Shown here: one piece after another, positions 5,513-57,891 of the stretch
Numbering within the stretch: position 1 is the stretch's first letter
How the letters are laid out: each line of letters starts with the position of its first letter
Origin: Bartonella sp. TP
Lineage (GTDB): Bacteria; Pseudomonadota; Alphaproteobacteria; Rhizobiales; Rhizobiaceae
Length of the DNA: 64,000 bases
Direction: 5' to 3'
Assembly (NCBI RefSeq): GCF_030406085.1
Contig: NZ_CP129002.1
Location: 995,584 to 1,059,583, forward strand
Notes under the pieces: model-generated
The model's database searches: none
What the model was told of the DNA's origin: nothing
The model's input: only the letters and a program-made list of their open reading frames with translations
Position numbers and translations under genes: made by a program

Positions 5513-6943
5513 ATGCAAGTTGTTGAAAAGTTAAATGAAGGTTTGAAACGTGAATTAGAGGTAGTTTTTTTTGCTTCTGATCTTTTTAAAGAGCTTGATG
5601 ATAAAATTGAGCAAGCAAAATCTACCGTGAGCTTAAAGGGATTTAGGGTTGGTAAAGTTCCAGCTTCTTATTTGCGTAAAAATTATGGTAAGTCTTTTAT
5701 GGCTGAAATTATTAATGAAAAACTTTCCTCATTGCCTGCAACTTTGTTAAATGATAGGGGCGAAAAGCCTGCTTTGCGACCTGAAATTTCTCTAGGGGAT
5801 GATGAGGCTTTTATCGAGCGTATTTTAAATAACAAGGAAGACGCAAAAGTTCTTTTAAAATATGAAATTTTGCCAAATATTGATATTAAGGATTTTTCAA
5901 AATTAGAAGTTAATAGGCTGGTTGCAGATATATCGCAGGCTGAAAAAGATAAACAGCTTGAAGAAATTTTTTCACAGGTTCGGGAATTTAAAGAAAAAAA
6001 ATCAGCTGCTGTTTTGGGCGATAGGATCACCATAGATTATTTAGGCAAAATTGCTGATAAGGTTTTTGAAGGTGGTGCAGATAAGGATGTGCAGCTTGTC
6101 TTAGGTGCCAATAAATTTATTCCTGGATTTGAAGAGCAATTGGTTGGGCTCAAAGCTGGTGCTGAAAAAGTTATAGCAGTAACCTTTCCAGAGGATTATG
6201 GAGCTAAGTCGCTAGCAGGAAAGGATGCTACTTTCGAAATAAAAGTGAAAAAAGTGGAAAAAGCTGGTGAATTTATTATTGATGATGAATCGGCTAAAAA
6301 ACTAGGGGCTGAATCGGTAGAGCAACTGAAGCAGTATGTAGATAGCCAGTTAGAAAGCAAATATGGAGCTATAACGCGTCAAAAAGTTAAACGTCAAATT
6401 TTGGATTTCCTAGATTCAGAATATGATTTTATGTTGCCAGGATCTTTAGTAGATATGGAAATTAAAAATATAGAGGCGCAAGTGCAAGGTGATAGCGCTA
6501 AAGACCATGATCATGATTGTAACGAGCATAATTGTACTGAGCATAATTTGCAATCTGATGAGTGGGAATCTCTGGCCAAACGGCGTGTAAAATTAGGTCT
6601 CGTATTAGCCAGCATAGGAGCATCTGCAAATGTTCAAGTGGGCCAAGAAGAGTTGCAGCGCGCTTTATTTCAACAATTGCAGTATTTTCCAGGTCAAGAG
6701 AAAGAGTTGCTGAATCTTTTCCAAAATAATCCCACCTTCGTAGAAAATTTAAAAGCTCCCATATTTGAAGATAAGGTAATTGATCATATTTTAGCTAGTG
6801 TTAAAGTTAATGATATATCAATTAGCCCTGAAAAATTAATGCATAATGATGAAGAACTTGAGATTAAACCGAAAGCTAAGAAAAAGGCGTCGACTAAGAA
6901 GGTTGCGCGTGATGATGTGTCTGTAGCAAAAAATAAGAAATAG
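5513..6943 (+). CDS. tig: Trigger factor (ribosome-associated chaperone and prolyl isomerase)
   Basis: Trigger factor binds at the ribosome exit tunnel and shields nascent chains. The 476-residue product has the N-terminal ribosome-docking signature GFRVGKVP (43-50), an FKBP-type prolyl isomerase domain (about 165-250, containing GDRITIDYLG and FEGG), and a helical C-terminal chaperone domain. Two features are unusual. Residues 331-345 contain a dense His/Cys/Asp cluster (His332, His334, Cys336, His339, Cys341, His344). The C-terminus carries a lysine-rich tail (KPKAKKKAS onward). The gene is flanked by tRNA-Leu and gatB rather than sitting next to clpP. Confidence 0.95.
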   Translation: MQVVEKLNEGLKRELEVVFFASDLFKELDDKIEQAKSTVSLKGFRVGKVPASYLRKNYGKSFMAEIINEKLSSLPATLLNDRGEKPALRPEISLGDDEAFIERILNNKEDAKVLLKYEILPNIDIKDFSKLEVNRLVADISQAEKDKQLEEIFSQVREFKEKKSAAVLGDRITIDYLGKIADKVFEGGADKDVQLVLGANKFIPGFEEQLVGLKAGAEKVIAVTFPEDYGAKSLAGKDATFEIKVKKVEKAGEFIIDDESAKKLGAESVEQLKQYVDSQLESKYGAITRQKVKRQILDFLDSEYDFMLPGSLVDMEIKNIEAQVQGDSAKDHDHDCNEHNCTEHNLQSDEWESLAKRRVKLGLVLASIGASANVQVGQEELQRALFQQLQYFPGQEKELLNLFQNNPTFVENLKAPIFEDKVIDHILASVKVNDISISPEKLMHNDEELEIKPKAKKKASTKKVARDDVSVAKNKK

Positions 6944-6980
6944 CATAAATAATTGGCAAGATAGTAAAGGCTAAGTGATT

Positions 6981-8480
6981 ATGGTAGCTGAGTTGGATTC
7001 TTTTTCAAATACCACCAAAAATTTTCTCTCTGGCGTTAGCGGTGATTGGGAAATAGTTATAGGTTTAGAGGTTCATGCTCAAGTTAAGTCTAAGTCAAAG
7101 CTTTTTTCTGGCGCTGCGGCAAATTTTGGGGCTAGCCCAAATGCTAATGTTTCCTTGGTGGATGCGGGTATGCCTGGCATGTTGCCGGTAATAAATGAAT
7201 TTTGTGTAAAACAAGCCATTAAAACAGGGCTTGGGTTGCATGCTGAAATTAATCTACTATCTTCGTTTGACCGTAAGAATTATTTTTACCCAGATCTTCC
7301 GCAAGGTTATCAAATTTCTCAGTTTTATTCTCCGATAGTTGGAGAGGGAAAGATAACTATAAATGTTGGGCCAGATAAAAACGGTGCTTTTGAAGATATA
7401 GAAATAGGTATAGAAAGATTACATTTAGAACAGGATGCTGGTAAATCTATGCATGATCAGCATCCTACTATGTCATATGTTGACCTTAACCGGTGTGGTG
7501 TGGCGTTAATGGAAATTGTATCGAAGCCAGATCTTAGATCAGCAGAGCAGGCGAAAGCTTATTTGACAAAGCTTCGCACAATAATGCGTTATTTAGATAC
7601 CTGTGATGGTAATATGGATGAAGGCTCTATGCGGGCAGATGTAAATGTATCTGTTCGTAAACCTGGAGGAAAACTTGGCGAAAGATGTGAAATTAAAAAT
7701 GTTAATTCTATAAAATTTGTGGGCCAAGCCATAAATTATGAAGCGCGTCGGCAAATTGATGTGTTAGAATCTGGTAATATTGTTTTGCAAGAAACACGTC
7801 TATTTGACCCTATTAAGGGCGAGACGCGCTCTATGCGTAGCAAAGAGGATGCTCAAGATTATAGATATTTTCCTGAACCTGACCTTCCTTGCTTAAGTTT
7901 ATCTAAAGACTATGTTGACGCAATAAAAGCTGATTTGCCAAAATTGCCGGATACTATAAAAAATGAATTAATTTATTCTCTGGGATTAAGCGCTTACGAT
8001 GCTTCCATATTGATTTCTGAAAGACAAATTGTCGATTTTTTTTATAAAGCAGCAAAAAACCATGATGCTAAATTAATTGCTAATTGGATAATTAATGATT
8101 TATTAGGTGCCTTGAACAAAGAAGGTCTTGATATTACGGGCTCACCTGTATCTCCAGAGCAGCTTGGGGAATTAGTTGATCTCATAAAAACTGGTGCTAT
8201 TTCCGGCAAGATTGCAAAAACGGTTTTTGATATTTTATGGCGTGATGGTGGGTGCCCAGCCCAAATAGTTGAGCAACATGGATTAATTCAAATTACTGAT
8301 ATAGCTAGTATTGAAAAGATTATAGATGATGTCATTGCTGCTAATCCTGAAAAGGTTTTGCAGCTTAAAACAAAGCCATCTTTAGTAGGGTGGTTCGTCG
8401 GGCAAGTTATGAAACTTAGTGATGGGCGCGCTAATCCACAAGTTGTTAATGATTTGCTAAAAAGGAAAATCGCTATTTAA
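6981..8480 (+). CDS. gatB: Asp-tRNA(Asn)/Glu-tRNA(Gln) amidotransferase subunit B
   Basis: GatB is the kinase/tRNA-binding subunit of the GatCAB complex, which converts misacylated Glu-tRNA(Gln) and/or Asp-tRNA(Asn) to the correct amidated forms. The signature regions [21 protein letters not shown] and [15 protein letters not shown] are present, with a C-terminal YqeY-like helical domain. An in-frame GTG at 6975 is possible; I chose the ATG at 6981 because AAAGG ends ten bases before it. gatA and gatC, often adjacent, are not in this window. Two GluRS genes elsewhere in the window fit an indirect route to Gln-tRNA. Confidence 0.95.
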
Positions 8481-10293: not shown

Positions 10294-10377
10294 GGAGGGG
10301 TGCCCGAGTGGTTAAAGGGGGCGGACTGTAAATCCGTTGCGTATGCTACGTTGGTTCGAATCCAACCCCCTCCACCA
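10294..10377 (+). tRNA. tRNA-Tyr (anticodon GUA)
   Basis: A class II tRNA of 84 bases. The acceptor GGAGGGG pairs with CCCCTCC and the CCA is encoded. The anticodon stem encloses the loop CTGTAAA, reading GTA. It lies 20 bases before tRNA-Gly, so the two are probably co-transcribed. Confidence 0.96.
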
Positions 10378-19570: not shown

Positions 19571-22500
19571 ATGAGTCAAGAAGTTATGAATCTTTTTAAT
19601 TCGAACTCTTCCGTGCCCACATTTGATTCTATAAAAATTTCCATAGCCAGTCCTGAAAAGATACGCTCATGGTCTTTTGGTGAAATAAAAAAGCCAGAAA
19701 CTATTAATTATAGAACCTTTAAGCCAGAGCGTGATGGGCTTTTTTGCGCGCGTATTTTTGGTCCTGTGAAGGACTATGAGTGTTTGTGTGGCAAATATAA
19801 GCGTATGAAATATAAAGGGGTTATTTGTGAAAAATGTGGTGTTGAGGTTACTCTAGCCAAAGTTCGACGTGATAGGATGGGGCATATTGAGTTAGCCGCT
19901 CCAGTTGCCCATGTTTGGTTTTTGAAATCTTTACCAAGCCGTATTGCTACACTATTAGATATACCTCTTAAAGACATTGAAAGGGTATTATATTTTGAAA
20001 ATTATATGGTGACTGAGCCTGGATTGACTGCTTTAAAAATGCATCAATTGCTTAGTGAGGATGAATATATAAAATGTGCTGCTGAGTATGGTAAAGACAG
20101 TTTTACAGCAATGATAGGCGCTGAAGCTGTTTATGAAATTTTGTCTACTTTAGATTTAGCTAATTTGGCTGAGCGGTTGCATGAAGAGCTAGCTGTTACT
20201 ACCACTGAGCTTAAGCAAGCAAAATTAATGAAGCGCATAAAGCTCGTTGAAAATTTTATTGAATCTGGTAATAAGCCGGAGTGGATGGTTTTAAAGGTAG
20301 TACCAGTTATACCACCAGATTTAAGGCCTTTAGTTCCTCTGGATGGTGGCAGATTTGCTACTTCGGATTTAAATGATTTGTATCGCCGTGTTATAAATAG
20401 AAATAATCGCTTGAAACGTTTGTTGGAGCTAAGAGCTCCTGGCATTATTGTTCGCAACGAAAAACGTATGTTACAAGAGGCGGTTGATGCGTTGTTTGAT
20501 AACGGGCGCAGAGGCAGAGTAATTACTGGTGCTAACAGGCGTCCGCTTAAATCTTTGGCTGATATGTTGAAGGGGAAGCAAGGGCGTTTTCGTCAGAATT
20601 TATTAGGTAAGCGTGTGGATTATTCCGGCCGCTCTGTTATTGTTACAGGGCCAGAACTTAAACTTCATCAATGCGGGTTGCCGAAAAAGATGGCGTTGGA
20701 ATTGTTTAAGCCTTTTATCTATGCGCGACTTGATGCTAAGGGATATGCATCTACAGTAAAGCAAGCTAAAAAACTGGTAGAAAAAGAAAAGCCAGAAGTT
20801 TGGGATATATTAGATGAGGTTATCCGCGAGCATCCAGTATTGCTTAATAGAGCACCGACCCTGCACCGCTTAGGAATTCAAGCGTTTGAACCAATATTGA
20901 TTGAGGGAAAAGCTATACATTTGCATCCCTTGGTTTGTACAGCATTTAATGCAGATTTTGACGGAGATCAGATGGCTGTTCATGTGCCATTATCGTTAGA
21001 AGCTCAGCTAGAAGCTCGTGTACTTATGATGTCGACTAATAATGTGCTGCATCCTGCTAACGGTGCTCCTGTTATTGTTCCTTCACAAGATATGGTGCTT
21101 GGCTTATATTATCTTTCTTTGTTATATGACAATGAGCCAGGTGAAGGTATGGTGTTTAGCGATATGGCTGAGTTGCAGCATGCGTTGGAAACTAAAGTAG
21201 TAACTTTGCATTCAAAGATAAAGGGTCGATATTTTAATTTAGATGAAAAAGGAAATATGAAATCTAAATTATATGAAACTTCCCCAGGTCGCTTGTTGAT
21301 AAGTGAGCTTTTGCCAAAGAATGCTGATCTTTCTTTTGATATTGTAAATCAAGAAATGACTAAAAAGAACATTTCAAAAATGATTGATAAGGTTTACAGG
21401 CATTGCGGACAAAAGGAAGCTGTTATTTTTTGTGATCGAATCATGCAGTTGGGTTTTTCTCATGCTTGTCGTGCCGGTATATCTTTTGGTAAAGATGATA
21501 TGGTTATACCTGCTATGAAATCAAAATTAGTGGAGGAAACCGAAAATTTAGCCAAAGAATATGAGCAGCAATATAATGATGGGTTAATTACCTATGGGGA
21601 AAAATATAATAAGGTTGTCGATGCTTGGGGTAAATGTACGGATAAAGTGGCAGATGAGATGATGCAGGCTATTCAGCATGTAGAGTTTGATAAAGCCACA
21701 GGCCGTCGTAAACAAATGAACTCTATATATATGATGTCTCATTCTGGCGCTCGTGGCTCTGCGAATCAAATGCGACAATTGGCTGGCATGCGGGGATTGA
21801 TGGCTAAGCCTTCTGGCGAAATTATTGAAACTCCTATTATTTCGAATTTTAAAGAAGGTCTAACGGTTAATGAGTATTTTAACTCTACGCACGGTGCAAG
21901 AAAAGGGTTGGCCGATACAGCATTAAAAACTGCTAATTCTGGATATCTTACGCGTCGGTTAGTGGATGTTGCTCAAGATGCTATAATTTCGCAACTTGAT
22001 TGTGGGACCGATAAAGGTTTAATGATGCAAGCTATAGTAGATTCTGGGCAAGTGGTGGCATCTTTGGGTCAGCGCATATTAGGTCGTACAGTGCTACATG
22101 ATGTTTACCATCCTACAACTAAGGAAGTGATTGTTGAAGGTGGACGTATGCTAGAGGAATCGGATGTTTCTGCGATAGAAGCTGCTTCGATTCAATCTAT
22201 ATATATTAGATCGCCTTTGACATGTGAAACTCGTTTTGGTGTTTGCGCAAAATGTTATGGTCGTGATCTTGCTCGTGGCACAATAGTTAATCAGGGAGAG
22301 GCAGTTGGTGTGATTGCTGCGCAATCTATAGGAGAGCCAGGAACTCAGCTTACTATGCGTACATTTCACCTTGGAGGAACTGCTCAGGTAGTAGATACCT
22401 CTTATCTTGAGGCTTCTTACGATGGTTTGATTGAGATAAGAAACCGTAATGTTATTCGAAATTCTGACGGCATTTATGTTGTCATGGGTCGTAATATGGT

Positions 22501-23773
22501 GGTGGTCATTAAGGATGAGAGTGGTAAAGACCGTTTCTCACAGAGAATAAATTATGGCGCGCGACTTTTCGTTGATGATGGTGATGCGGTTCGGCAAGGG
22601 CAACGTCTGGCTGAGTGGGATCCATATGCTAGACCTATTATGACTGAAATAGATGGATATATTGGTTTTGAGGATTTGGTTCCTGGTGTATCAATTTCTG
22701 AAATTGCGGATGAAGCTACAGGTATAATTAAGCGTCAAATTATTGATTGGCGCTTAAATCCTAGGGGTAGCGATCTTAAGCCAGCTATTGTAGTAACTGA
22801 CAAGGAAGGTAATATTTTAAAATTGCCTAAAGGTTCTGATGCGCGCTTCCCGCTGTCTGTTGATACGATACTTTCAGTTGAGCCAGAATCTTATGTGAAT
22901 GCTGGGGATGTAATTGCCCGTAGTTCCTTAGAAAGTGCAAAAACGAAAGATATTACGGGAGGCTTGCCTCGGGTTGCCGAGTTATTTGAAGCTAGGCGGC
23001 CAAAGGATCATGCTATAATAGCTGAAATTGATGGGGTTATAAGATTCGGTAAGGATTATAAAAATAAACTTAGAATACTTATAGAACCTAGTGATAAAGC
23101 TCTGGAGCCTATTGAATATTTATTACCTAAAAATCGTGCTTTCCACTGGCAAGATGGTGACTACATAGAACGTGGCGATTACCTTCTAGATGGTAATCCA
23201 GCACCGCATGATATTTTGGCAATAAAAGGCGTTGAAGCATTGGCCTCTTATTTGGTAAATGAAATACAAGAAGTATATAGGTTACAGGGTGTGCTTATTA
23301 ACGACAAGCACATAGAGGTTATTGTGCGGCAAATGTTGCAAAAAGTAGAAATTATAGATACAGGGGATTCTAGTTATATAATAGGGGATCATGTTGATCG
23401 GATAGAGCTTGAAGAAATAAATGAAAAATTGCTATCAGCGGGTAAAAAAATTGCAGTTGGTACGCCAGTTTTATTGGGTATTACTAAAGCTTCTTTACAG
23501 ACGCCTTCGTTTATTTCTGCTGCTTCTTTCCAAGAGACTACTCGCGTGTTAACTGATGCTGCCGTAGCTGGCAAAATTGATGCTTTGCAAGGCCTAAAAG
23601 AAAATGTTATTGTTGGTAGATTGATTCCCGCAGGTACTGGTGGTGCTATGAGGCAAGTTCGTACTATTGCTTATAATAGAGATAAGACTATAGTCGATAG
23701 CTTTAAGGATGGTTCTGCTATTAATGATGAAGCATCTTTATTAACTGATTTTCGTAATGCGACTGCCGTTTAA
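19571..23773 (+). CDS. rpoC: DNA-directed RNA polymerase subunit beta'
   Basis: RpoC is the largest polymerase subunit and holds the catalytic magnesium through Asp462, Asp464 and Asp466 of NADFDGDQ. The N-terminal zinc ribbon (CLCG...CEKCG, about 71-90) and the second zinc site near the C-terminal half ([13 protein letters not shown]) are intact. The length, 1400 residues, is normal. AGGAG precedes the ATG, 44 bases after rpoB. A strong terminator follows at once. The rpsL-rpsG-fusA genes that often follow are not here. Confidence 0.98.
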
Positions 23774-54359: not shown

Positions 54360-55022
54360 TTAAGAGCTAAATTGCTCTGCTAATATACGCTCATCCCAAG
54401 AATGATCTGCATCAAATAATATTTTTGCTTCTAAATTTTTTGCCGTTTCGATAACAACCGATGTGACTGACTTTATCTCTACCATATCAGCAGATACATT
54501 TACAGGCCTTTTTTGCGCTTCTAAAATATCAAATTGTACTTTTGAATTATTATGTAATAAGGCTCCACTCCATCTTCTAGGGCGAAATGGGCTTACCGGG
54601 GTTAGCGCCAATAGTGGGGCTTCCAAGGGTAAAATAGGCCCATGAGCTGAAAGATTGTACGCGGTAGACCCAGCAGGTGTAGCAAGCATGATGCCATCGC
54701 ATATTAGTTCTTCCATCCTTATTTTATTATCTATAGAAATACATATTTTTGTTGCTTGATGCGATTGACGGAATAATGAAACTTCATTTACTGCAAGAGC
54801 AGTTTTTGTGTGTCCGGTCTTTGTAGTAGCGACCATTTTTAGTGGGGCGATTTTTTCGCATATGGCGTTTTCTATGCGTGAATATAAATTTTCTGTATTG
54901 TAGTTATTCATCAAAAAGCCTACAGAACCCCGATTTAGCCCAAAAATACATTTACCTTTGTAAATCGGATTTTCCAAGATTTCATGCAGTAATTTCAGCA
55001 TAGTCCCGTCGCCACCAAGCAC
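54360..55022 (-). CDS. nadK: NAD kinase, start codon uncertain
   Basis: NAD kinase phosphorylates NAD to NADP. The open frame from the GTG at 55022 begins immediately at LGGDGTML, the family's Gly-Gly-Asp-Gly motif, so it lacks the first strand and helix. Reading on upstream without a stop gives NRLHFINAS, ARKELTALYPHYPIEEA and TTIIVLG, which match the N-terminus of alphaproteobacterial NAD kinases. That extension has no ATG, GTG or TTG. An ATA at 55134-55136 lies ten bases after AAGG and sits where family members start. NDE-like sequence (AVNEVSLFR) and GSTAYNLSAHGPI are intact. The true gene probably extends to about 55136. Confidence 0.85.
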   Translation of the reverse strand: MLGGDGTMLKLLHEILENPIYKGKCIFGLNRGSVGFLMNNYNTENLYSRIENAICEKIAPLKMVATTKTGHTKTALAVNEVSLFRQSHQATKICISIDNKIRMEELICDGIMLATPAGSTAYNLSAHGPILPLEAPLLALTPVSPFRPRRWSGALLHNNSKVQFDILEAQKRPVNVSADMVEIKSVTSVVIETAKNLEAKILFDADHSWDERILAEQFSS

Positions 55023-55274
55023 TATTATAGTCGTGGCTTCTTCAATAGGGTAGTGGGGGTATAGAGCTGTCAGCTCTTTGCGCGCAGCCTTTGCAATGGT
55101 AGTGCTGGCATTTATAAAATGTAGTCGATTAGCTATAGTTTTATTACCTTCATTAAGCTGTTAATATAACTTTCATAGTATATCTTAAAGATTTGTACAA
55201 TATGATAGAGAAATTATTATAGTTTTTAATTGCTTTTTCTCATTAAACTGTGTATTTTGCATAAATAATCCTTT

Positions 55275-55364
55275 GGAGGGGTGGTCGAGCGGTTTAAGGC
55301 ACCGGTCTTGAAAACCGGCGTGCAGGGAACTGTACCGTGGGTTCGAATCCCACCCCCTCCGCCA
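55275..55364 (+). tRNA. tRNA-Ser (anticodon UGA)
   Basis: A 90-base class II tRNA with a long variable arm. The acceptor GGAGGGG pairs with CCCCTCC and the CCA is encoded. The anticodon loop CTTGAAA gives TGA. Directly after it GCCAGA (55361-55366) and TCTGGC (55380-55385) could form a hairpin with a very short T tail. tRNA-Ser genes are common integration points, and the accessory genes downstream fit that, but no repeated 3' end was found. Confidence 0.96.
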
Positions 55365-55418
55365 GATTTTGAAGAGAGCTCTGGCTTTGGCCTACATCTC
55401 CGATATTTGATATAGACC

Positions 55419-56699
55419 ATGACAATCACTTTTAAAGCACTACATGAATCAGATTTTCCGTTGCTGTTAAAGTGGCTGAAGGCGCCACACGTAAAAAAAT
55501 GGTGGGATCAGGATGTGATTTATACAATGGGATTGGTGAAAGAAAAATTTGGCAAATACATTCATGGCATTGCTTTTTCAAAAAACTTAAGCCATAAAAC
55601 ATATGCCTATATTATCTGTGTACACGAAGAAATGGTAGGTTATATACAGGTTTATAATGCTCGTGATTTCTCTAATGAAAATGGCTTAGATTTAAGCACA
55701 ATTTCTGATTCTATATGTGGCGTAGATTTATTTATCGGAGAACAAGCGTTCTTACATAAAGGATGGGGAACAAGAATTTTAAATGAATTTTTAAACCAAA
55801 TAGTAACACCGCATTTTGATTGTTGCCTGATTGATCCAGCAAAAGATAATTTAGTTGCACTTAAAGCATTTAAAAAGGCCGGATTTAAAATATTAGAGCA
55901 ATTTCAAATAGAATCTAATATTTGGATGTTGAAGGAGTTATCATCAAGAATTGTTCCTTTACCAACCATTCAAAAGCTTATAAAAGAACGCTATGGTTGT
56001 GCTAAAGCCGTATTCTGGGCGGGATCAGTTGCAGCGAATCATGGAACAAAGACCTCTGACCTTGATCTTGTAATTGTGTATGAAGCATTGCCACATGCTT
56101 ATCGTGAGGCATTTATTTATGATGATTGGCCAATTGATGCCTTTGTCCATGATCTAGATACATTGCGATATTTCTGTGGTAGAGTAGAGGCAAGTGATGG
56201 TAAGCCTGCGCTTATTAATATGATATCGCATGGCCAGGAAATATTAGCACAAAACTCGGTAAGCATAAAAGCCAAGGCTATTGCTGCTGAAGCTTTAGTA
56301 AAAGGTCCGGATAGTTGGACGCAGTCTCAAATTGCCAAAGAGCGTTTTATCATCACAGATATCTTGGACGATATTAAATCTTCTAAAAACAAAGAAGAGC
56401 AAATAATATCGATAGTTAATTTGTTTGAACCCCTGTTACAATTTTATTTTAGAGCGCAGAAAAAATGGACTGCTAGCGGCAAATCGTTGATACGACTTTT
56501 TAAACAAGAAAATCCAGAGCTTGCGAAGGAATGGATTGCGGCTTTTGAAAGCTTGATACAAACGGGGGATGCTTCCGGCATTGAATGTGTGATTACAAAG
56601 ATATTGGCGCCTTATGGTGGTTATTTGTGGGATGGCTTTAGGTCTGATGCGCCTGCAGATTGGAAGGAAGCTGAATTTACAACAAATTTTAAGGGTTAA
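55419..56699 (+). CDS. Fusion of an AAC(6')-like GNAT acetyltransferase and an aminoglycoside-type nucleotidyltransferase
   Basis: The 426-residue product has two domains. Residues about 1-175 resemble 6'-N-acetyltransferases of the AAC(6')-Ib group: LLLKWLKAPHVKKWW, GVDLFIGEQ, the acetyl-CoA loop HKGWGTRILNEF, and DPAKDNLVALKAFKKAGF. Residues about 185-426 begin a nucleotidyltransferase fold with Gly202-Ser203, Asp214-x-Asp216 and a likely third acidic residue Asp240 in PIDAFVHD, as in ANT and MNT-type enzymes. A helical C-terminal part follows. Modification of aminoglycosides by acetylation and adenylylation is inferred, not shown. No ribosome binding site is evident. It lies 54 bases after tRNA-Ser, which suggests acquisition. 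Confidence 0.75.
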   Translation: MTITFKALHESDFPLLLKWLKAPHVKKWWDQDVIYTMGLVKEKFGKYIHGIAFSKNLSHKTYAYIICVHEEMVGYIQVYNARDFSNENGLDLSTISDSICGVDLFIGEQAFLHKGWGTRILNEFLNQIVTPHFDCCLIDPAKDNLVALKAFKKAGFKILEQFQIESNIWMLKELSSRIVPLPTIQKLIKERYGCAKAVFWAGSVAANHGTKTSDLDLVIVYEALPHAYREAFIYDDWPIDAFVHDLDTLRYFCGRVEASDGKPALINMISHGQEILAQNSVSIKAKAIAAEALVKGPDSWTQSQIAKERFIITDILDDIKSSKNKEEQIISIVNLFEPLLQFYFRAQKKWTASGKSLIRLFKQENPELAKEWIAAFESLIQTGDASGIECVITKILAPYGGYLWDGFRSDAPADWKEAEFTTNFKG

Positions 56700-56760
56700 T
56701 AAAAAAATCTATGAACAGGGGCAATATGTTCACATTCCTAACCAAGATGAGTTTATGCTT

Positions 56761-57239
56761 ATGAATACAAAAAATAGAAATTACCTTATCTTAATTATGT
56801 GGATCGTAGCGCTAATTGTAATTGGTGTAGCGATAGGCTCTTTAACTAGACCAGAAATTGGCACTTGGTATAGTCACTTAAACCGTTCGCAGCTGACTCC
56901 ACCAAATTATCTATTCCAGTAGCTTGGACTATTTTATACGGCATTATTGGCGCTTGTGGCTGGCTCATTTGGCGCATATATTCTATCCCTAAGTTAAATA
57001 TTATCAAAATCCTATATTTGACGCAGTTAATTTTAAACTGGAGCTGGACACCTTTATTTTTCTATTACCATTTAACTGGGCTTGCACTTGTAGTTTTAGT
57101 CGCTATGGATATTTTGGTCTTGGCGCTCATTTGCTTAGCTCGTCAAAAAATGAAGACAATTTCGCTGCTGCTGGTTCCTTATTTGTTGTGGATTCTGTTT
57201 GCGAGCTATTTAAACTTTTACATATGGCAGTATAACTGA
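56761..57239 (+). pseudogene. tspO: Frameshifted TspO/MBR family membrane protein
   Basis: The first half (MNTKNRNYLILIMW through QLTPPNYLF) ends at a TAG at 56920-56922. Translation continues in another frame from 56916 as PVAWTILYGIIGACGW, NWSWTPLFFYYH and PYLLWILFASYLN to a TGA at 57239. Together the pieces make a full five-helix TspO, which binds tetrapyrroles or related ligands in membranes. Relatives read LFGPVW at the break, so about four bases appear to be lost. An in-frame ATG at 56755 is an alternative start. It follows the acetyltransferase fusion at 61 bases and converges with purN. Confidence 0.8.
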
Positions 57240-57246
57240 ATTAATA

Positions 57247-57891
57247 TTAGCAATGTTGGCCAAGCATTTTGACAATTGGAGTTGGCTCGGCTGAGGTAAA
57301 TTGCTCTATGCTATTATTCGCTATAAATTGGTCTAAGGCGCGGGGATATAGTTTATGTTCTTGTAGCAGAATCCTTGCGCTTAGCGAATTTACATCGTCG
57401 GTTTTTAATATTGGTACTTTTGCTTGCGCTAAGATAGGGCCGCGGTCAAGCTGCGCTGTGACCAAGTGAACGGTGCATCCCGTAATAGCAGCGGCAGCTT
57501 TTAAGGCTTGGTCTGGAGCGTTCAGGCCTGGAAAATTCGGCAATAAAGATGGATGTATGTTTAATATTTTATTTTCATAATGCGCTAAAATCTCAGCTCT
57601 TAAAATAGATAAATATCCAGCTAAGCATATTAGCTCTATGTTATATTGCTGTAACTTAGCTAATATGGCTTTTTCGTATAAGGTTTTGTTGGTATATGTT
57701 GCTTTTTCAATTATTGCTATAGGAATTTGGTGTTTTTTTGCAATTTCTATGCCCTTAGCTTGGCTATTATTACTTATTATCAAATTTATGCTAGCTGGAT
57801 AATTAGGCTTTTTGGCAGCCAAGATTAAGGCTTGCATATTGCTACCCCGCCCTGATATTAAAATAGCTACTCGCTTTTTATTATATTGCAT
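57247..57891 (-). CDS. purN: Phosphoribosylglycinamide formyltransferase (PurN)
   Basis: Transfers a formyl group from 10-formyltetrahydrofolate to GAR in purine synthesis. The 214-residue product has ISGRGSNMQALI at its N-terminus, the folate-binding NIHPSLLPNFPG and the catalytic His and Asp in TVHLVTAQLDRGPI. Its start overlaps purM by 25 bases, so the two are translated as a unit. Confidence 0.96.
   Translation of the reverse strand: MQYNKKRVAILISGRGSNMQALILAAKKPNYPASINLIISNNSQAKGIEIAKKHQIPIAIIEKATYTNKTLYEKAILAKLQQYNIELICLAGYLSILRAEILAHYENKILNIHPSLLPNFPGLNAPDQALKAAAAITGCTVHLVTAQLDRGPILAQAKVPILKTDDVNSLSARILLQEHKLYPRALDQFIANNSIEQFTSAEPTPIVKMLGQHC

Follow-up and report, generated by a model that had tools for sequence, protein, structure and literature searches.

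In Bartonella sp. TP, one gene appears to encode a bifunctional two-domain modifier of small molecules, whose substrate is most likely an aminoglycoside-like amino sugar, and to have been acquired as a single module; we give this reading a probability of about 55 %. The N-terminal half, an acetyltransferase of the GNAT type, would use acetyl-CoA to acetylate an amino group, while the C-terminal nucleotidyltransferase (NTase) would attach a nucleotide, taken with the help of Mg2+ from a nucleoside triphosphate, to a hydroxyl group. The module would have come out of a recombining pool of antibiotic-modification-like genes that intracellular bacteria maintain and share, and would have landed between tRNA-Ser and tspO. 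We infer that the protein is produced, that both halves are active, that the substrate is an antibiotic and that the enzyme would be of benefit against compounds encountered inside the host or in its surroundings.

The window, i.e., the whole stretch of 64,000 nucleotides analysed here, carries this gene at 55419-56699 on the forward strand (Table 1) as a single intact frame of 426 amino acids, with an ATG start and no internal stop; the opposite strand of the same interval has many stops. The genome, a single contig of 1,157,064 bases, contains one copy. An earlier note, made from the letters of the DNA, had claimed that one polypeptide joins the motifs of an acetyltransferase to those of a nucleotidyltransferase, and both sets indeed lie where it placed them, with a Pfam match to each half. 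Residues 1-175 form the AAC(6')-like GNAT half (WWD at 28-30, HKGWGTR at 113-119, DPxxDN from D139) and residues about 181-417 the NTase half (GS at 202-203 and DLD at 214-216, spaced as GS-x10-DLD, and D240). Acetyltransf_8 is matched over residues 10-163 (E 9.2e-19, 67.9 bits, cut-off 27), NTP_transf_2 over residues 184-226 just above its cut-off (E 2.6e-4, 21.8 bits, cut-off 21). Taken from single proteins, the NTP_transf_2 assignment is borderline: two of the fused relatives described below, L003 and L013, score 19.8 and 19.2 bits, both under the cut-off of 21, and for the third, L002, no match is listed at E 0.01. Among 15 aligned relatives of the NTase half, 14 match the model at E <= 0.1, the strongest at 5e-8; none of the 15 rows departs from G, S or the first Asp, the second Asp is kept in at least 90 %, and the third acidic position is Asp or Glu in the printed alignment. 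Membership in the pol-beta-type nucleotidyltransferase superfamily can be considered well supported by these patterns, and the assignment of the C-terminal half to nucleotidyltransferases has survived the profile check.

Table 1. Features of the fused gene and its immediate flanks (positions in the window).
Feature	Positions	Strand	Evidence
tRNA-Ser(TGA), immediately upstream, bordering the insertion	55275..55364	+	ARAGORN
AAC(6')-like GNAT half, residues 1-175	55419..55943	+	Acetyltransf_8, NCBIfam, predicted fold
Fusion junction, residues 176-180; similarity between islands repeatedly begins or ends here	55944..55958	+	Fused-versus-split alignment, break points
NTase half, residues 181-417: G202 S203, D214/D216, D240, then helical C-terminal part	55959..56669	+	NTP_transf_2, motifs
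Short unrelated tail and stop codon; relatives run on into DUF4440 here	56670..56699	+	End of DNA similarity, junction sequences
TspO/MBR gene, downstream flank, outside the enzyme; readable in two frames only	56761..57239	+	Two Pfam TspO_MBR pieces

For the first half, sequence, predicted fold and active-site residues agree on the AAC(6') likeness proposed in the earlier note. The best solved relatives by sequence are AAC(6')-Ie (4qc6, E 6.6e-13) and AAC(6')-Im (E 1.3e-12). An AF2 model of residues 1-175, with ten-residue pLDDT means of 67-90 except for 44 at residues 51-60, has as its nearest fold AAC(6')-Im (6bfh; Z 21.1, rmsd 1.9, 160 residues aligned), followed by AAC(6')-Ib (20.3) and AAC(6')-Ie (20.2). 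The margin to other folds is small, the best non-AAC row being the uncharacterised 2qml at Z 18.9; two other AAC rows (3f5b, Z 17.6; 2pr8, 16.6) fall below some non-AAC folds, siderophore- and polyamine-type GNATs follow at Z 16-18, and spermidine and N-terminal acetyltransferases at 16-17. Q77, Y79, D103 and D139 are common to AAC(6')-Ib, IIa and Ie; W29 is common to Ib and IIa and replaced by Tyr in Ie, and D30 is Gly in Ib and IIa. Of the six residues W29, D30, Q77, Y79, D103 and D139, five are thus found in Ib and IIa and five in Ie. In AAC(6')-Im, Asp99 orients the N6' amine, Tyr34 packs on the ring and Trp54 packs on the C ring of kanamycin (PMC5722643). D103 aligns with Asp99 and W29 with Tyr34, given a presumed numbering offset of one, and the position of Trp54 is occupied by Leu57 in the window protein.

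The nearest NCBIfam model is that of the AAC(6')-Ie family, at 61.4 bits against a cut-off of 340, and all 12 AAC(6') models listed stay below their cut-offs (others at, e.g., 54 of 260 and 53.1 of 280 bits). A GNAT tree joins AAC(6')-Ib, IIa and Ie to an iucB-labelled row (93/86) to the exclusion of the window row, in a topology with few reference rows and a backbone that is not resolved. Since the iucB-labelled sequence (L080) groups with AAC(6')-Ie and has most of the residues listed above, it is unfit as a control of the siderophore type. The GNAT half plausibly works like an AAC(6'), yet it is not classed as one.

The second half had been called ANT-like. This holds at the level of the superfamily, through NTP_transf_2, but at E 0.1 the window half is matched by none of the ANT models. 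ANT(4')-II was the only ANT model to match at all, in three of the 15 relatives (best E 0.0011), the window row not being one of them. Sixteen of 72,556 plasmid records match the NTase half, none of them labelled ANT and several without annotation; two plasmids examined for their annotated aadA6 and ANT(4')-Ia are absent from these 16. A profile match to kanamycin nucleotidyltransferase is weak (8e-4), and hhalign gives the NTase family a probability of 50 % with ANT(4')-Ia and 42 % with AadA6. The top three Foldseek rows are ANT(4'')/KNTase, again weak (E 0.08-0.3, best 0.076). The NTase-only model is poor (pLDDT 56), and its likeness to LinB (Z 8.9) and ANT (Z 7.8) concerns the helical part only, at values where Z < 13 can mean little; the structure search with the full model was uninformative on this half. 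ANT(4'), the kanamycin nucleotidyltransferase, and LinB both combine an NTase core with a helical domain at the C-terminal end, an arrangement that the window half would share, but at the family level there is no sequence match to either. Profile, hhalign and fold comparisons thus lean to a kinship with ANT(4')/KNTase and LinB, each of them weakly. The best PDB profile match of the NTase half, a nuclear envelope phosphatase, was judged spurious. As far as these comparisons go, the NTase half is a member of a wide uncharacterised family rather than a recognised ANT, and 'ANT-like' applies at superfamily level only.

The gene starts 54 bases after the end of tRNA-Ser. Downstream, the two tspO pieces lie in different frames, and tspO is therefore probably a pseudogene, unless a sequencing error is involved. 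The further neighbours are housekeeping genes (glutamyl-tRNA synthetase-like, DEAD helicase, NAD kinase, formyltransferase and AIR synthase). The host had been taken for an AT-rich alphaproteobacterium, which agrees with a window GC of 0.38 and with RpoC (19571-23773), 79 % identical to that of Sinorhizobium and Shinella and 72 % to that of Methylobacterium; these identities make Rhizobiaceae likely. A family search for 16S rRNA found none in the genome, and the same search was positive in only nine of 14 control genomes. By composition the gene does not stand out as foreign, its GC3 (0.296) resembling the values of five neighbours (0.27-0.33). No attachment-site repeat of the tRNA-Ser 3' end was found downstream of the gene in the window; the search returned the tRNA itself and one match with two mismatches at 10355-10374, within an annotated tRNA-Tyr. 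The interval 54900-57300 yielded no terminator-like site, and its promoter-like sites are near chance (13 versus 9.5 expected, sd 3.4).

A scan of 84,980 species, with one genome per species and a reach limited to close relatives, found 12 loci, of which three have GNAT and NTase in one frame. L002 of Holospora curviuscula (6001-7635, 544 aa) is 78 % identical, aligned over window residues 1-417; L003, on a 3.8-kb contig of a Legionellales MAG (535 aa), and L013 of H. obtusa (697 aa) each share 52 % identity with the window protein across almost its full length. All three have the domain order and the junction of the window protein, but they end in DUF4440 whereas the window copy stands alone and ends before it. 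A second H. curviuscula copy, L008, is fused but interrupted. In L004 and L009 the modules are adjacent separate genes, interrupted in L009; in L006 a 47-base NTase-like stretch starts where the contig ends. At L005, L007, L010, L011 and L012 the GNAT is present, and the NTase half is unmatched within the locus stretch examined; the L012 genome has an NTase relative elsewhere (51 %). Unfused versions occur in islands of Midichloriaceae and gammaproteobacteria. In L002, His stands at the position of GNAT D139 and Tyr at the second NTase Asp (D216), two positions at which the window copy is intact, and this H. curviuscula fusion may be partly inactive. L003, L004, L006 and L007 are gammaproteobacterial MAG contigs, and L005 and L010-L012 are MAG contigs as well; some of these could be misbinned, a risk that is smaller where two Holospora species and a complete Legionella plasmid are concerned.

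In broader samples, matches were found in 27 of 289 genomes of the class (E <= 1e-5), 21 of 61 relatives (E <= 0.001) and three of 398 genomes of the phylum (E <= 1e-20), own genome included each time; a single match spanning both halves was seen in these samples in the own genome only. Among 4180 matching plasmid records and 14 matching phage records, there is none in which a single place accounts for 80 % of the protein. The phage matches, 14 among 50,697 records, concern the GNAT half only, and viral contigs gave no confirmed match. Relatives of the NTase half are in many cases uncharacterised chromosomal genes that stand alone, and stand-alone forms occur in alphaproteobacterial genomes and in records of Streptomyces, Rhizobium and Bacillaceae. 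GNAT relatives likewise occur outside islands, one of them within an NnrD-like protein.

The two-domain gene was very probably acquired horizontally, as judged from the trees of its halves. Among the 31 rows of the GNAT tree, that of the window belongs to a clade of six (support 98/99) with Holospora, Midichloriaceae (Jidaibacter, Anadelfobacter) and gammaproteobacterial MAGs (Legionellales, Francisellaceae), and the five GNATs of its own family in the tree lie apart from it. In the tree of the NTase half, with 18 rows, it joins L002 and L004 (98/96) inside a clade of seven (100/99), at a distance from the two own-family NTases included. Many inner forks of both trees are weak. At the DNA level, the window gene and L002 are 81 % identical from the start codon to 56669, where the similarity to L002, and likewise to L004 and L009, stops. 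A chimeric query of 13 cluster protein stretches matched only the gene itself in its own genome (E <= 0.001), a query that represents a subset of the island genes and that weak or short genes could escape. The end of similarity at 56669 and the lack of the cluster partners tested indicate a single GNAT + NTase module without the DUF4440 tail. By these comparisons, the gene is very probably a transferred member of the mosaic islands that intracellular bacteria carry.

These islands have a recurrent make-up. Upstream of the GNAT in L002, L004, L005, L008, L009 and L013, a MarR-type regulator is accompanied by a gene resembling either CPT or CatB/Vat, with interruptions in some of these genes; in L003 and L006 the regulator directly precedes the GNAT. 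Family searches were run at one locus each (MarR in L002, CatB/Vat in L005, CPT in L004), the genes elsewhere being named from the likeness of their translations. Farther along follow RibD-C, methyltransferase and APH-like genes. The CPT-like, CatB/Vat-like and APH-like genes and a GNAT-APH fusion score above Pfam cut-offs and below NCBIfam ones, e.g., 104.6 of 250 for CPT and 256 of 350 for CatB. The L002 and L013 fusions are located in long islands, and in L013 a second GNAT precedes DUF4440.

Stretches of more than 200 bases shared among nine island loci are 68-96 % identical. Compared with L002, each of the eight other loci has a shared stretch that starts or stops at the GNAT/NTase junction (6505-6529), and in L005 and L013 another starts at 7263, where DUF4440 begins; in L004, L008 and L009 the similarity continues through the DUF4440 border. 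The islands would thus be mosaics that often break at domain borders. Within the fused gene, the GNAT core is divergent in L003 and L013, and synonymous differences point to recombination. Between L002 and L003/L013, pS is 0.24-0.26 at codons 169-251 and 0.41-0.46 at codons 1-43 versus 0.67-0.91 in three other segments; the window gene shows a weaker trend against the same two loci (0.47-0.52, 0.40-0.53 and 0.71-0.78 elsewhere). Between the window and L002 the pattern is reversed, codons 169-251 being the most diverged (0.64 vs 0.38-0.60), as expected if this segment was replaced in L002. The segments were picked after viewing the alignment and compared without a formal test.

Several other fusions were noticed. 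The H. obtusa island of L013 also encodes a GNAT-APH fusion (L013:9626-11179, Acetyltransf_8 + APH), with the layout of AAC(6')/APH(2''), and a GrpB-GNAT fusion (L013:2422-3402). In Jidaibacter, a YCII domain is fused to the DUF4440 module that terminates the Holospora fusions (L005:6912-7640), and in a Rickettsiales MAG an AAC(6')-like GNAT lies in frame within an NAD(P)H-hydrate dehydratase (Carb_kinase) protein (L012:5395-6756). A conjugative plasmid of Legionella hackeliae carries a fusion in NTase-GNAT order, then DUF4440, among a series of GNAT genes and phosphotransferase genes (L063:9998-11173), and another protein of this plasmid is annotated as a GNAT/phosphotransferase fusion.

How far the enzyme acts on an antibiotic is where the readings part. 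It is rather unlikely, in our estimate, that the substrate is instead something like a polyamine, a host metabolite, a tRNA or a protein, the AAC(6') resemblance then reflecting a shared GNAT branch. Such a role would suit two halves that both score below the curated resistance cut-offs, an NTase family that is widespread and chromosomal in the samples, GNAT relatives that occur outside islands, and a fold shared with spermidine and N-terminal acetyltransferases. However, the active-site residues and the best fold matches favour AAC(6'), and in the islands both modules neighbour several antibiotic-modification-like genes. A defence-type or toxin-antitoxin AMPylator as the NTase half, hinted at by MntA (E 0.049) and by PDC-S09, a candidate defence family (E 0.004-0.008), both matched weakly, is very improbable: the MntA match reaches 13.5 bits against a cut-off of 60, the half is about 240 residues long with a helical C-terminal part while the MntA model has 106 positions, and no HEPN was found among the neighbour genes searched (NAD kinase, tRNA-Ser, TspO and formyltransferase).

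The gene may also have landed by chance and be decaying, with one half or neither active. We consider this distinctly improbable, even though the island partners tested are absent from the genome, the adjacent tspO is split over two frames, the H. curviuscula copy carries His in place of D139 and Tyr in place of D216, and no strong ribosome-binding site is seen by eye. As to the latter, AGGAG is missing before the window ATG, but equally so, by eye, in five of eight relatives, being present in L004, L009 and L013. Moreover, the frame is intact with all motif residues kept, and dN/dS against L002 is 0.149 for the whole frame (GNAT half 0.225, NTase half 0.113), which suggests selection on both halves, as a pairwise value that mixes both lineages with the time before transfer and in which selection in the own genome is inseparable from that in the donor. 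That the fusion is an assembly artefact is scarcely credible, since the genome is one contig and the identical junction recurs in independently sequenced organisms; nothing was found in its favour. A bifunctional modifier of an aminoglycoside-like amino sugar remains our preferred reading.

Fusions of this general kind are known. In AAC(6')-Ie/APH(2'')-Ia, a related GNAT half likewise comes first of two modifying domains in one chain, but the second is a kinase rather than a nucleotidyltransferase. ANT(3'')-AAC(6')-IId of Serratia combines a nucleotidyltransferase and an acetyltransferase in one chain with the AadA-type ANT first, i.e., in the opposite order to the window protein. The Legionella hackeliae plasmid protein WP_011212578 (P0002), with a DUF4440 gene after it, shows 53 % identity in its NTase half, across 57 % of the query, but its order is NTase-GNAT and its GNAT best matches other Pfam models. 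The earlier suggestion that the acetyltransferase-first order may be new holds in part only: the order recurs outside Bartonella sp. TP in L002, L003, L013 and the interrupted L008, and the layout is, on present sequences, common to Holospora and relatives. Searches of open-licence papers, by titles and abstract openings, gave nothing recognisable on GNAT-NTase fusions or the islands, nor any such fusion already characterised with another function. Another intracellular alphaproteobacterium, Rickettsia buchneri, carries aminoglycoside-related genes on mobile DNA in its AGAB cluster; the portions of the papers cited here describe mainly biosynthesis genes in it and mention no such fusion (PMC8770908, PMC6300072, PMC9111745). 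A Rickettsia-type reading as antibiotic biosynthesis was dropped, since the gene content described for Rickettsia in those portions differs.

If the enzyme works as inferred, it would be a GNAT-first acetyltransferase/nucleotidyltransferase fusion for which we found no description. It would also suggest that bacteria living inside protists or other cells hold a reservoir of drug-modifying enzymes that are fused and have gone unrecognised, which would include Holospora, Midichloriaceae and a Legionella plasmid. The members scored in this analysis stay below the NCBIfam resistance cut-offs that NCBI uses for naming such genes. The most interesting part is the mosaic pool of origin. Tentatively, and on the doubtful side, we propose that a recombining pool of modules for antibiotic modification, swapped at domain borders, is common to intracellular bacteria from different classes. 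Bifunctional enzymes (GNAT-NTase, NTase-GNAT, GNAT-APH and GNAT-NTase-GNAT-DUF4440) would arise in it repeatedly, and the window gene would be one such module, which entered a new lineage by itself. If this is true, the shared pool could be the building place of fusions like AAC(6')/APH(2'').
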